From a virus, in IMG/VR virus record IMGVR_UViG_3300026533_000009, positions 1 to 42,020 of that record: a stretch of DNA of 42,020 bases. The stretch is one strand, 5' to 3'. A program made the position numbers and the translations under genes. The first letter of the stretch is position 1; every line of letters starts with the position of its first letter. This document shows positions 3,910 to 37,601 of the stretch, one piece after another. Below the pieces are notes generated by a model. It saw only the letters and a list, made by a program, of their open reading frames with translations, was not told the DNA's origin and did no database searches.

Positions 3910-4590
3910 ATGGAACTGTCAATATTTAAGAACAAAGGCGTCAACAGTGTAAACACTAGAGACTTGCATAAAGAGCTAGGTGTTAGAACACCTTATAGTA
4001 AATGGATTAAAAGACTTATAAGTGACTATGGCTTTATAGAAGGTAAAGATTATAGTATAAAGGTATACAAAAACTTCCTGCTCAAATCTGAGCAGGAAGA
4101 TAAGGGCTCTAATATAAAGGCGGACAAATTTGACCACCTTTATATGGAGCCCCTTAAAGGCCAAGAGGTCAATAGAATCGATTATATAGCCCCTATAAGT
4201 GTAGCTAAAGAGATAGGCATGCTATCAAAGACACCTAAAGGTCGTGAAATAAGAAGATACTTTATAGGTATAGAAGAGCAGTATCAACTTCTTTCTAAAA
4301 GTAAACAAAAGAAGCTTAAAGCAAAGTTGGCTAAAAGTAAAGCAAAGTTAGCGGAGTTGGAAGTTGAAACCTATATACTCCAAGGTGAGTCTAATGAAGC
4401 TGGTTGGTATCTTAGAAAACAAGCTCGTGATATGTTTATGAGAGTATCAGAACAGATGACCGTACAAGAGAGTGTTGAGATGAGCAGAAGAATCAGAAGG
4501 CTTGTAAATCTACCTAAAGAAAAGGGTTGGAACCGCGCAACCGTAGATCAGACAAACAAAAGATATAAACTGCTAAAGGAGTATTTATGA
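3910..4590 (+). CDS. AntA/AntB-type anti-repressor
   Basis: 226 residues. Residues about 1-45 (VNTRDLHKELGVRTPYSKWIKRLI...GFIEGKDYS) match the AntA/AntB anti-repressor domain; residues about 85-130 (DYIAPISVAKEIGMLSKTPKGREIRRYFIGIEEQ) complete it. A lysine-rich helical stretch (KSKQKKLKAKLAKSKAKL) follows, likely coiled coil, then a basic C-terminal domain. In phages these proteins counter a repressor at the lytic switch. The obvious targets here would be whatever binds the palindrome over the early promoters, which is inference. The stop overlaps the next start (ATGA, 4587-4590). Confidence 0.8.
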   Translation: MELSIFKNKGVNSVNTRDLHKELGVRTPYSKWIKRLISDYGFIEGKDYSIKVYKNFLLKSEQEDKGSNIKADKFDHLYMEPLKGQEVNRIDYIAPISVAKEIGMLSKTPKGREIRRYFIGIEEQYQLLSKSKQKKLKAKLAKSKAKLAELEVETYILQGESNEAGWYLRKQARDMFMRVSEQMTVQESVEMSRRIRRLVNLPKEKGWNRATVDQTNKRYKLLKEYL

Positions 4591-18497: not shown

Positions 18498-18523
18498 TTT
18501 TTTATTCCTTGTAATAAAATTAT

Positions 18524-18605
18524 GGGCTCAGAATAGAACCTACCTTCAAGGCGATAGGTTCAATTCTAAGCCCTTTTGGACCATACCTATATGGTTATAT
18601 AGGTA
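18524..18605 (-). terminator. Two hairpins after the tail tube gene (attenuator or terminator)
   Basis: First hairpin: arms at 18524-18542 and 18555-18573. On the minus strand one mismatch becomes a U-G pair and one U-U remains, giving about 18 of 19 pairs. Second: 18584-18592 with 18597-18605, nine perfect pairs and loop GGTT. They fill the gap between the tail tube and chaperone genes, where siphoviruses often reduce transcription. No long U tract follows either, so attenuation or RNA-end protection is as likely as full termination. Confidence 0.5.
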
Positions 18606-18639
18606 CAGTCAACTTATGACCAAATAATGCATCCTGGGG

Positions 18640-32672: not shown

Positions 32673-32699
32673 ACTAACTCCTTTGTGTATTAAAACCTT

Positions 32700-32720
32700 A
32701 TTATACTATATATTATATTT
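32700..32720 (-). promoter_or_regulatory. Minus-strand phage promoter for the late operon
   Basis: Minus strand reads AATATAATATATAGTATAAT; -10 TATAAT at 32705-32700, 28 bases before the HNH start. It is divergent from the + promoter at 32729-32753. The HNH-terL-portal-head series is the likely transcript. Confidence 0.65.
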
Positions 32721-32728
32721 AAACTTAA

Positions 32729-32753
32729 TTTAATATACTATACGGTATAATAC
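32729..32753 (+). promoter_or_regulatory. Phage consensus promoter, + strand
   Basis: TTTAATATACTATACGG joined to TATAAT (32746-32751). Serves the four-gene block 32779-33608. The variant C in TATACGG keeps the ATAC...GTAT dyad. Confidence 0.75.
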
Positions 32754-33621: not shown

Positions 33622-33649
33622 GCTAAGGTATATGTTGATATACCTTAGC
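33622..33649. terminator. Bidirectional terminator-like hairpin between convergent genes
   Basis: GCTAAGGTATAT and ATATACCTTAGC form 12 perfect pairs around GTTG, 13 bases after the + strand block and overlapping the last codons of the convergent gene. U tracts are lacking, so release efficiency is uncertain. Confidence 0.55.
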
Positions 33650-34052
33650 TACTAATAACGCTTATTTCAAGCTTTTTAATATTCTCCTCAATCTTCTCAT
33701 CTTGCTCATCATATTTAAAGAACTTATCGGCATACCACTTACCAGGGTCTTTAGATGTTAAGAATACTTGTTCAACAGCCCATACTTTAAGCCGTAGTTC
33801 AGCTTCATTAAACAAAGCTAATATAGCATCATTGCCTTTAGCGTTCTTTATACCGGCTTTTAAAGATACACCTATAGCTAATTCTAAATGAGGCTTAGTC
33901 TTCATCGGTTGATCATCATCATTAAAGAACTTCTTTAAAGCTTTACTTAAGACTTTAGGTTGTACATAGCATCTACCCCATGTATAATCTCTATATCCAT
34001 CTTTAGTAATCTTCTCAGCCATGTGCTTGTAATCAATTTGTGGTTTAAACAT
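33645..34052 (-). CDS. Possible terminase small subunit
   Basis: 135 residues. MAEKITKDGYRDYTWGRCYVQPKVL...HLELAIGVSLKAGIKNAKGNDAILALFNEAELRLKVWAVEQVFLTSKDPGKWYADKFFKY. The ending (helical pair, then FLTSKDPGKWYADK) resembles small terminase subunits, in which a ...K..P.kW.dK segment is common. No other small terminase candidate is seen. It is separated from terL by a + strand block, which is unusual. SD AAAGGAG; TGATATAAT promoter candidate upstream. Confidence 0.4.
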   Translation of the reverse strand: MFKPQIDYKHMAEKITKDGYRDYTWGRCYVQPKVLSKALKKFFNDDDQPMKTKPHLELAIGVSLKAGIKNAKGNDAILALFNEAELRLKVWAVEQVFLTSKDPGKWYADKFFKYDEQDEKIEENIKKLEISVISS

Positions 34053-34069
34053 TTTGTCTCCTTTGTTTA

Positions 34070-34078
34070 ATTATATCA
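34070..34078 (-). promoter_or_regulatory. Extended -10 promoter candidate
   Basis: TGATATAAT on the minus strand, 18 bases before the start of the possible small terminase gene. Confidence 0.45.
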
Positions 34079-34416
34079 TAACATCAATTATGATTAAAGG
34101 CGTCTTAATTTAGTGGCGTCTTAATTCTTGGGCTTCTATTTAAGCCGTCTATATAACGCTGTCTATATCATCGTTTTAACAAAAAGTACTAGTTACCGTA
34201 ACTTTGGCCCTATATATACTTATATTAAAAATATACTACTATTATAACTTTTAATTATATTACTTTACTTATTTACTTTATTTAATATATAAATAAATAA
34301 GTAACTAAGTAACAATATATCAAAAGCTATAGCCACAGCGCACTATCAGCAGTTACATGGCTAAGTAATCCCAGTTACATAGTTACTCAGCCTTTTTTTA
34401 AAGCATGTCCTATAGT

Positions 34417-34481
34417 GGCGCTTTAATTTAAGCGCCCTTCGTCTGGTACCTGCCAAGTAACCCCGTTACTGCCCAGGTACC
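34417..34481 (-). terminator. Two hairpins after the primase gene
   Basis: 34445-34452 pairs with 34474-34481 (GGTACCTG/CAGGTACC), enclosing AGTAAC (34456-34461) and GTTACT (34465-34470), which pair in turn. 34417-34423 pairs with 34430-34436 (GGCGCTT/AAGCGCC). Placed just past the primase stop. They could end transcription, but no U tract follows; an origin function is an alternative. Confidence 0.4.
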
Positions 34482-34484
34482 TCA

Positions 34485-36932
34485 TCAACTTATGTTTAAA
34501 ATATAAGCCTTCTTTTTATTACCACCATCCATATACTTTAAATAAGCCTCTGTTACATTTATATTCTTTGCTGTTCCTACTATTCCAAATAAGTCTTTAG
34601 CAGGTGCTCTTTTAATATCACCCATCTTTAAACCTTCATCTTGATAGTCAAAGCTTTTCATATATTCATCTTTAAGCTCACCTAATCTAACCCCGTGTAT
34701 AACATAACCATACTTGTTACTATGATATATACCTGCTTCAGCTAATTTATTTATCTCACTTTCCTTGATAAAGTTTGTTAGCCATTCTATACCTTCATGT
34801 TCTATTACATTATTTTTACTCACAGTACTATTCTTGATAGTATGCTTCTTAGTGTATGCTACTGCTATCTTACTTAATTTTTTATCAGCCCTCTTTCTAC
34901 CCATTTTAAAGTACTTATCAATCCCTTTATGTAAATACTGATAGATATATCTTGTCACATGTTCTATATAGTCAATATTCTTCTTGCGGACTTTTCTATC
35001 TTTTAGTACTCCGCTCTTCTCAAGCTTACTAAATCTATTAGCAAATTGACTCTCTACCCCTGATGTACCACCACCACTACCTAATCCAGCTACATCATCA
35101 TAGCTAGTGAATATCTTCATATATATAGGTACAGTAACGCGCATACTACCTTTTGGTGTCACATTGATATCACTAATGATATTCTTGAGTCCTTTGTGTA
35201 GTTTATTAAACTCATCAAAAAATAGAAACCATGAACCATTAATATTCTCGGGCTCAACACCTGATGGTTTACCATCTAATGCAAGTTTCAGCTCCTCCAT
35301 CTCCATGTTATAACCTATACCTAAGTTATCTGATAGTATATCCTTGAACAAGAACGTTTTACCAAACCCTGATGTTGCTTGTACCCAGTAGAACGCTTCT
35401 CTAAGTCCATGACCAAATCTGTGAGCTAGCATAACGTCTAAGAACGCCTCAAAGTCACCTTTTTTACCAAAGTGTTTTTTATAATCCTTAATGACCTCCT
35501 CATCATAAGCCTCCTCATACTTTTTCTTAACTGGCATAATCTCAGTGGTCCTAAATATAGCTGCGCCTCTGTCTATGTCAATACCATTCTTCTTACTCCA
35601 TATATCATTCTTAAATACAGTATTACTAATTTGCTTATGCTTCACCAGAAATGCAATCATCTTCTTATACATAATATCCTTATGCTTACCTATTATATTG
35701 CTTCTTTGCGTAGTAGTGTAGTCACCCTCGCCGTAGTACTGCATTAACAGTGATTCTTTCATAGCGCCTTTCTCATCCGGAGTCAAGTCCCTCTCTACTT
35801 TATCCCAGATAGCAGATACATCACTTTTATCAACATATCTCCTACCTCCACTTGATGATACCCATACTACTTGCTTTGTTTTGTAATTCCATATACTATT
35901 ATCGATGTACGCTAATACAGCATTAACCTCAAATAATAAATCATTCTCAAATTTATCAACTATCACTGGGTATTTGTTCCGTAGCTTAGCTACTTCTGTA
36001 GGGTCAATCGTTCTCTCATCACTCTTCATGATGTATATACCCTCACCGCATCCATTACAGTAATAAAAGTAATTACCACTGTCTGTTTTGTTACAAAAGG
36101 CTCCTCCATCATTGTTACCATGGCTCTTGCTATTATGACATCCACACCTAACATAACCCTCACTCTCTATTATGTCAATCATCTCATCACCGCTCAGCTT
36201 CTCATCTGAATCTTCACGGTGCAAGAAGTGAATCTCTTCATCATATCTATCATGGCTCCCAGATTCAATCTGAGCGTCCACACTCTCTAGACTAGTATTA
36301 TCGTTACCAACATCTTTGAATGCCTTCAGGTCAATCCTCGAGCCTTTAACAATACTAATAATCTTATTAGTTTTCTTATTGAGGTTTGGCGACATATTAT
36401 TGACTGAGCTATGCATTGCTATATCTAAAGCTAAGCTTTTTAGTGGCCCACTTATGATGCTTTTGTATACAGTAGCAAATTCTTTCTGGGTGCCAGGTGG
36501 TCCATCAATAAATGCACCTATATGAAACTTTTCCCAGCTTTGTTTGCTACTCTTTGAAGCTAAGATAACACAACCCCAGCCAAGCTCTTTAAATATGCCT
36601 TCTATCTCACTGAGATTAACTGGGCCTTCAATACATCTCTCTATTTTCTCACCATGCCTATCAATGATAGCCTCTTTGTTATCAACATCAAAAAAGATAC
36701 AACCCTTACCGTCAAAAGTTTCTATATTATCTATAGCTCTACGGTAATTGACCATCTGGCCACCATTAGTCTTTGTTTTAGGCTCTTTGAATTGTTGAGT
36801 GCAGACTGCGTGAGTCCTCATGAGTTTACCTAGCTTTTTAAGGTTTTTTACCTCAACAGGTTTAAAATCCTGATAATAACCTTTACTGTCACCTTGTTTA
36901 GGGTGCGTTTTTGACGCGCTTAATTTAAACAT
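34485..36932 (-). CDS. Primase-helicase (AEP-like primase, zinc knuckle, SF3 helicase)
   Basis: 815 residues. N-terminal third: FFDVDNKEAI, ILASKSSKQSWEKFHIGAFIDG and LDIAMHSSVNNMSPNLNK, the layout of archaeo-eukaryotic-type phage primases. Centre: zinc-binding C.CHNSKSHGN...C...YYCNGCGEG. C-terminal: SF3-type ATPase with Walker A SGFGKT (about 520) and Walker B WFLFFDEFNK, then sensor segment KIFTSYDDV and an arginine-rich NRFSKLE. It would prime and unwind DNA at the origin. The 5' leader upstream is very long and structured if transcription starts at 37494. Confidence 0.85.
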   Translation of the reverse strand: MFKLSASKTHPKQGDSKGYYQDFKPVEVKNLKKLGKLMRTHAVCTQQFKEPKTKTNGGQMVNYRRAIDNIETFDGKGCIFFDVDNKEAIIDRHGEKIERCIEGPVNLSEIEGIFKELGWGCVILASKSSKQSWEKFHIGAFIDGPPGTQKEFATVYKSIISGPLKSLALDIAMHSSVNNMSPNLNKKTNKIISIVKGSRIDLKAFKDVGNDNTSLESVDAQIESGSHDRYDEEIHFLHREDSDEKLSGDEMIDIIESEGYVRCGCHNSKSHGNNDGGAFCNKTDSGNYFYYCNGCGEGIYIMKSDERTIDPTEVAKLRNKYPVIVDKFENDLLFEVNAVLAYIDNSIWNYKTKQVVWVSSSGGRRYVDKSDVSAIWDKVERDLTPDEKGAMKESLLMQYYGEGDYTTTQRSNIIGKHKDIMYKKMIAFLVKHKQISNTVFKNDIWSKKNGIDIDRGAAIFRTTEIMPVKKKYEEAYDEEVIKDYKKHFGKKGDFEAFLDVMLAHRFGHGLREAFYWVQATSGFGKTFLFKDILSDNLGIGYNMEMEELKLALDGKPSGVEPENINGSWFLFFDEFNKLHKGLKNIISDINVTPKGSMRVTVPIYMKIFTSYDDVAGLGSGGGTSGVESQFANRFSKLEKSGVLKDRKVRKKNIDYIEHVTRYIYQYLHKGIDKYFKMGRKRADKKLSKIAVAYTKKHTIKNSTVSKNNVIEHEGIEWLTNFIKESEINKLAEAGIYHSNKYGYVIHGVRLGELKDEYMKSFDYQDEGLKMGDIKRAPAKDLFGIVGTAKNINVTEAYLKYMDGGNKKKAYILNIS

Positions 36933-36949
36933 AGTTATCCTTATAGCAT

Positions 36950-37495
36950 AAAATTTTATGGGGTTTATGGTGAGGCTGCGAAGCTCTACTTATATGATGC
37001 ACACCGGAGCTTCGCGGGTCGTATGTGCATCATATAAATAACCCATAAACAAGAGCCGGAACAAGGACTCTTGCTTATAGGTTATGAAATAAGCCAAGTG
37101 ATAAAATATCGATTTTTATTTGATTTCCTTATTAGTCTAATAAAAATATTGGCTTATACCAAAGAGTTCCATAGAACCCTTCAGAATAAGAATAATTTGA
37201 TTAGGTACCGCTTATAGTACCATATATGAGGATAGCGAGAGTGGGTGCGGCTGGATAACCAGGGATAACTATCCTCATATATAATACAAATTATAGAGGT
37301 GACATACACTAAAGGGTCATAGCCAATAGTGCACTTACCCTCTGATGAACCTTGAAGCGGTAACTAAAAGGCTCATAAGAAGATAAGATGATGGTCTGTG
37401 GCACTGAACCATCATCTAAGTACATAAAGGAGGTATCCAGAATATACGAACTATATCAATAATCATAAGAAAGAACGGTACGTGTCGGTTAGACA
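36950..37495 (-). ncRNA. Candidate large structured non-coding RNA (about 545 nt)
   Basis: A gene-free stretch packed with stems. In + coordinates: 37386-37395/37408-37417; 37347-37353/37368-37374; 37307-37311/37327-37331 inside 37295-37299/37339-37343; 37222-37235/37269-37282 enclosing 37251-37254/37259-37262; 37204-37208/37217-37221; 37159-37169/37174-37184; 37112-37120/37139-37147 inside 37089-37097/37149-37157; 37038-37057/37066-37085; and an interleaved pair 36990-37003/37024-37037 with 36978-36986/37007-37015. In three stems, seven imperfect pairs are all G-U on the minus strand but A-C on the plus strand, so the RNA is probably minus. A minus-strand promoter lies at 37520-37501. Size and setting recall ROOL/GOLLD-like phage RNAs; membership is untested. 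The 3' end is not defined, and it may also be the primase leader. Confidence 0.65.
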
Positions 37496-37500
37496 AGAGA

Positions 37501-37520
37501 ATTATACTATATATTATATT
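37501..37520 (-). promoter_or_regulatory. Minus-strand phage promoter for the structured RNA/primase
   Basis: Minus strand reads AATATAATATATAGTATAAT, the same block as at 32720-32700; -10 TATAAT at 37506-37501, start expected near 37494. Divergent from the + promoter at 37552-37575. Confidence 0.65.
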
Positions 37521-37551
37521 AAACTAATATTAAAGACTCATTTAAACTTAC

Positions 37552-37575
37552 TTTAATATACTATATGGTATAATA
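37552..37575 (+). promoter_or_regulatory. Phage consensus promoter, + strand
   Basis: TTTAATATACTATATGG joined to TATAAT (37569-37574); serves the small-gene block from 37602. Confidence 0.75.
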
Positions 37576-37601
37576 CATTGTCTAAATATAAAGGAGGCAG
37601 T

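Follow-up and report, generated by a model that had tools for sequence, protein, structure and literature searches.

The gap between the two divergent gene blocks of the virus record IMGVR_UViG_3300026533_000009 holds a real and, judged by its predicted fold, statistically extraordinary stretch of minus-strand structure with a putative promoter of its own. We consider it most likely that the minus-strand transcript from this promoter, a member of a phage promoter family (37536-37501), forms a multi-domain structured 5' leader of about 560 nt on the primase messenger, a reading that we hold with about as much confidence as doubt; a free-standing new RNA seems less likely. A structured RNA this large, fixed before a replication gene, would have a function (primase control) that can be tested directly, and, should the RNA turn out to be stable, it could represent another class of large phage RNA. 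Large phage RNAs like GOLLD and ROOL are widespread, and we know of no function established for them.

Genomic setting and strength of the fold

The record, all 42,020 bases of which formed the window analysed here, is organised in two divergent gene blocks. The plus-strand block consists of replication and nucleotide genes (DNA polymerase A, exonuclease, thymidylate synthase, dCMP deaminase, MazG and helicase) and spans the right-hand end from 37602 as well as the left-hand end up to about 12 kb, while the minus-strand block comprises the primase, terminase, portal, head and tail genes. Between them lies a gap of 645 bases (36933-37577), and the record has no longer gene-free stretch. That the region holds no gene, as the first-pass annotation had claimed, is borne out, the longest open reading frame within the structured part being 48 aa.

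Folded as RNA, the minus strand of 36933-37510 has a predicted energy of -182.8 kcal/mol (z -9.58), equalled by none of 100 shuffles, against -156.4 kcal/mol (z -4.56) for the plus strand of the same interval. The outermost pairing in this fold (37510-37502/36951-36943) involves promoter bases and is to be ignored. For the modelled transcript (37494-36870), in which the leader part alone was shuffled, the energy of -192.3 kcal/mol compares with -133.4 +/- 5.6 kcal/mol for the shuffles (z about -10.5), and 0 of 120 were as good. When a stem finder was applied to the whole genome, five of the strongest local stems in 42 kb fell within 36990-37387.

A second line of evidence concerns the strand. 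The first-pass annotation had reported that seven of seven imperfect positions in its stems are G-U on the minus strand, which is correct for the stems chosen but slightly selective; with a stem finder that handles both strands alike, the imperfect positions are G-U on the minus strand in 11 cases and on the plus strand in 2 (binomial P 0.011). This asymmetry is a modest, independent sign for the minus strand as RNA. Folding, strand asymmetry and the promoter together lend good support to the general claim of a large structured RNA on the minus strand.

That promoter, with its -10 TATAAT at 37506-37501 on the minus strand, had also been correctly placed, and it belongs to a repeated family of the extended -10 type, TTTAATATACTATATGGTATAAT and near variants, with about a dozen sites in the genome. 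The copy assigned to the structured RNA occupies 37501-37536 (minus strand) and is aimed at the region, while repeat comparison revealed a divergent copy at 37541-37577 (plus strand) that would drive the plus-strand block; the two face apart across 37501-37574 as an inverted repeat of 85% identity. Across the record, these two copies included, the TATAAT of the family occurs on the plus strand at about 530, 1862, 5304, 7642, 8646, 24962, 37569, 38931 and 41583 and on the minus strand at 37506 and 32705, and there is a further divergent pair at 32699-32752. Starting at about 37494, the predicted transcript would span all of the stems and arrive at the start codon of primase (36932) after about 560 nt. 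A scan of the minus strand between promoter and primase recognised no intrinsic terminator.

Architecture of the predicted RNA

The structured part, about 550 nt in length (36945-37494, minus strand), lies 5' of the primase ribosome site and is predicted to fold into several domains. The three stems named in the first-pass annotation are all present. Folding and the stem finder both return a 20-bp stem with an 8-nt loop (37038-37057/37066-37085) and an 11-bp stem with a 4-nt loop (37159-37169/37174-37184), each with three minus-strand G-U pairs; the third (37347-37353/37368-37374) belongs, as its inner section, to a stem that extends over 37336-37353/37368-37385 and is folded with 17 bp around the loop UUAGUUACCGCUUC.

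In the 5' half, a long-range closing helix of 8 bp (37474-37481/37205-37212, P 0.94) would enclose a multibranched domain (37205-37481). In order, this contains two small hairpins, the second of which bears an anti-Shine-Dalgarno sequence, and then stems of 11 bp (37386-37396/37407-37417), 17 bp, 8 bp and 20 bp, the last of these (37217-37236/37268-37287) being predicted with P 1.00 around a 31-nt loop. The 3' part consists of the other 11-bp stem (37159-37184), a 9-bp stem (37089-37097/37149-37157) around smaller ones, a stem of 17-20 bp, and a 17-bp stem that is interlocked with a 9-bp stem.

At two points the model suggests alternative folds. The loop segment 37355-37367 is complementary at 12 of 13 positions to 37201-37213, a pairing that would form a possible pseudoknot and compete with the closing helix. 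At the 3' end (36978-37040, minus strand), dyad A (36987-37003/37024-37040, 17 bp) and dyad B (36978-36986/37007-37015, 9 bp) would give hairpins of near-equal energy, -26.0 vs -23.0 kcal/mol, or 3 kcal/mol apart. An H-type pseudoknot of these two dyads was considered and rejected on geometric reasoning, since no linker is left to span the 17-bp stem; for the same reason we take A and B to be mutually exclusive hairpins.

A proposed structured leader of the primase messenger

The primase gene (34485-36932, minus strand; 815 aa) begins directly 3' of the structured RNA, with AAGGA 5 nt ahead of its AUG. Given this position and the lack of a terminator, the region is most simply read as a primase leader, and its sequence has the arrangement of a structured 5' leader: a promoter upstream, a gene on the same strand downstream and no terminator between them. 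The first-pass annotation had offered either an RNA of the GOLLD/ROOL type or a long primase leader, and of these the leader fits the anatomy better.

Under this reading, transcription of the minus strand would proceed from the promoter at 37536-37501 through the leader and into primase, and folding of the leader would set the timing or amount of primase; both steps are inferred from the sequence. The simplest mode of control would be a ribosome site that is switched between a hidden and a free state, and a processed, stable RNA might arise from the leader as a by-product. Several features are consistent with such a switch. The Shine-Dalgarno region of primase, AUAAGGAUA (36936-36944, minus strand), is predicted to pair with 37186-37194, and the ribosome site with 37186-37195, at P about 0.9-0.95. 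However, pairing was as high in 14 of 120 shuffled leaders and so is not significantly above shuffles, for which reason we rejected sequestration as stand-alone proof of a switch. Another segment, 37263-37272 (AUAGUUAUCC), is complementary over all 10 nt to the ribosome site and start (36931-36940), with equally long complements in 35 of 2000 shuffles, but this pairing is absent from the predicted ensemble, and the two proposed partners are not the same. The ribosome-site complement, the two 3' hairpins of near-equal energy and the anti-Shine-Dalgarno hairpin are weak mechanistic hints, suggestive only, and none of them is decisive.

Leaders that hide a ribosome site, like riboswitches or thermosensors, are similar in adjoining their gene, in having a site predicted to be paired and in forming alternative hairpins. 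The present region differs in that it matches no ligand domain in Rfam, in that its pairing is no better than that of shuffles, and in being much larger. The amount of structure in these 550 nt goes far beyond the needs of a simple leader, which is a point against the leader reading.

Search for relatives

Searches of phage, plasmid, viral-contig and genome collections yielded no homologue of the region, which counts against the leader reading. Comparison with phages and plasmids by blastn gave only chance-level matches of 30-40 nt. Searches of IMG/VR with the primase and terminase reached no homologue of the structured region, nor did a search for relatives with the DNA polymerase, a search of genome contigs, or a primase search of 395 genomes of one order, while a DNA search of 369 genomes of one class produced short matches only. 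The loop motifs and the promoter, used as exact patterns, led to no relative either; the one hit to the promoter pattern, in L049, was discarded, as L049 has no convincing gene in common with this phage, and the matching stretch there sits where a gene that looks to be of HNH type begins. The absence of relatives is a statement limited to the collections searched, which may lack records of identical or closely similar genomes, and within them the region is at present a single, well-supported fold.

The primase itself belongs to a divergent family, with at most 36% identity, found in phages (of Thiohalocapsa, Pseudoalteromonas and Vibrio) and in the genomes of largely aquatic bacteria (Hydrogenovibrio, Moritella and Colwellia). 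Where these relatives could be read, primase nearly always lies close behind a small open frame and has no 550-nt leader, a further point against the leader reading.

Comparison with known RNAs and alternative explanations

The foremost alternative is that the region encodes a large ornate RNA that stands on its own and belongs to a new class. It would resemble ROOL in size, be made from its own promoter, be set free when the primase messenger is processed or terminated, and act as a structural RNA or RNA complex. We regard this as unlikely, though it is the alternative that survives best. Its length of about 550 nt, the many stems, the long-range closing helix and the possible pseudoknot would all suit such an RNA, as would its promoter and a GC-content of 0.376, compared with 0.320 in the remaining intergenic DNA. 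Against it stand the lack of a terminator before primase, of an Rfam match and of a tRNA neighbourhood, and the fact that no second example came to light in any collection searched. A narrower proposal joins it to the leader, namely a new class of multi-domain phage RNA of about 550 nt with alternative or pseudoknotted folds, produced from the primase leader, stable, and acting in replication; this we think rather improbable.

Membership of a known class was addressed with the Rfam covariance models, as the first-pass annotation had proposed. None matches the region at the gathering score or up to E 5, the GOLLD, ROOL, OLE and C4 models (the last of these also being part of the library) included, and the hits returned are chance hits, for example rli52, whose 22.6 bits fall short of the cut-off of 70. 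The region resembles GOLLD and ROOL in being phage-encoded, hundreds of nucleotides long, rich in stems and placed in a gene-free stretch of its own. ROOL forms a homo-octameric cage. GOLLD, ROOL and OLE have Rfam models, and many GOLLD members exceed 800 nt and are often found near tRNA islands (PMC12286853). Here the RNA would be about 550 nt and a tRNA search of the 42,020-base window found none, although proximity to tRNAs is described as frequent and not as absolute. Because there is no Rfam match, no tRNA in the window and no terminator before primase, the GOLLD/ROOL part of the original suggestion is unsupported.

A precedent for a free-standing RNA is phage ICP1, which lacks tRNAs and produces an abundant large non-coding transcript of about 800 nt from ORF-less space (PMC7567579). 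The two cases share a large ORF-less stretch in a tRNA-less phage; the ICP1 transcript, however, was measured by RNA-seq and lies beside the lysis cluster, whereas the present region is likened to it by description.

It is more doubtful still that the region is an antisense or immunity-type leader, similar to P4 CI or the C4 RNAs of P1 and N15, from which a processed piece would pair with its own leader or with the messenger of the divergent operon. RNAs of the P4 CI and C4 type form a leader before a replication or antirepressor operon and contain internally complementary stretches. Our region likewise precedes a replication operon, and its loop 37355-37367, in rivalling 37474-37481 for 37201-37213, would provide internal complementarity; the genome also has an AntA antirepressor-like gene. 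In P1, P7, N15 and P4, RNAs complementary to gene leaders are reported to be in use (PMC7567579). The corresponding candidate here is the hairpin at 37420-37447 (minus strand), identified by folding and repeat comparison, which bears GGAUACCUCCUUU, a strong Shine-Dalgarno sequence in reverse complement, and over 10 nt is complementary to 37588-37597, the ribosome site ahead of the divergent operon's first gene. The leader of that gene ranked top of all genes for complementarity, initially with z -4.2; part of the match lay in untranscribed promoter DNA, and removing those bases weakened it to z -2.5 on the transcribed part alone, where 6 of 500 shuffles form as good a duplex; it is not significant once the roughly 60 leaders tried are counted. 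Moreover, the region has no match to the Rfam C4 model, its complementarity is near chance, it is longer and far more structured than the C4-type RNAs, and a non-exhaustive scan of the genes showed no integrase or repressor. The C4 and CI RNAs serve only as a functional analogy.

There is little to recommend a DNA element, such as a replication origin rich in palindromes, in which the RNA fold would be incidental. The region coincides with the GC-skew minimum between the divergent blocks, beside primase, and the adjoining 37495-37601 is very AT-rich (GC 0.196). Yet gene direction explains the switch in skew equally well, both the fold and the G-U pairs are strand-asymmetric, and there are no iterons, nor any direct repeats besides the promoter copies. 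Least probable of all is an accumulation of unrelated hairpins, from mobile palindromes or degraded genes and with no common function: other strongly folded spots do exist in the genome (34053-34484, 18498-18639 and 4001-4200), but the stems share no sequence among themselves or with any other part of the genome, are densely packed and show a consistent minus-strand bias.

Other features of the genome

The second-longest gene-free stretch (34053-34484, minus strand) lies on the other, downstream side of primase and contains several hairpins, with a strong minus-strand fold (z -6.4 vs -4.4 for the plus strand). Next to it, at 33645-34052 (minus strand), is a gene for a protein of 135 aa that matches HigB-like toxins below threshold (E 0.003; 18.4 bits, with the cut-off at 27). 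Between tail genes, 18498-18639 (minus strand) contains two strong hairpins, with stems of 21 bp and 14 bp and a minus-strand z of about -6, which lie below the major tail protein gene and could be a terminator, a processing site or an attenuation site. The very strong fold at 4001-4200 (minus-strand z -8.2) falls within the gene resembling AntA antirepressors (3910-4590). Its match to Pfam AntA extends over 95 residues, while the model has 68 positions, and for this reason the hairpins may occupy an in-frame insertion. Finally, near-identical repeats are found near the ends of the record, 1-547/41054-41600 (98.9%) and 1844-2136/41565-41856 (95.6%), and contain duplicated small genes and methyltransferase-like fragments.
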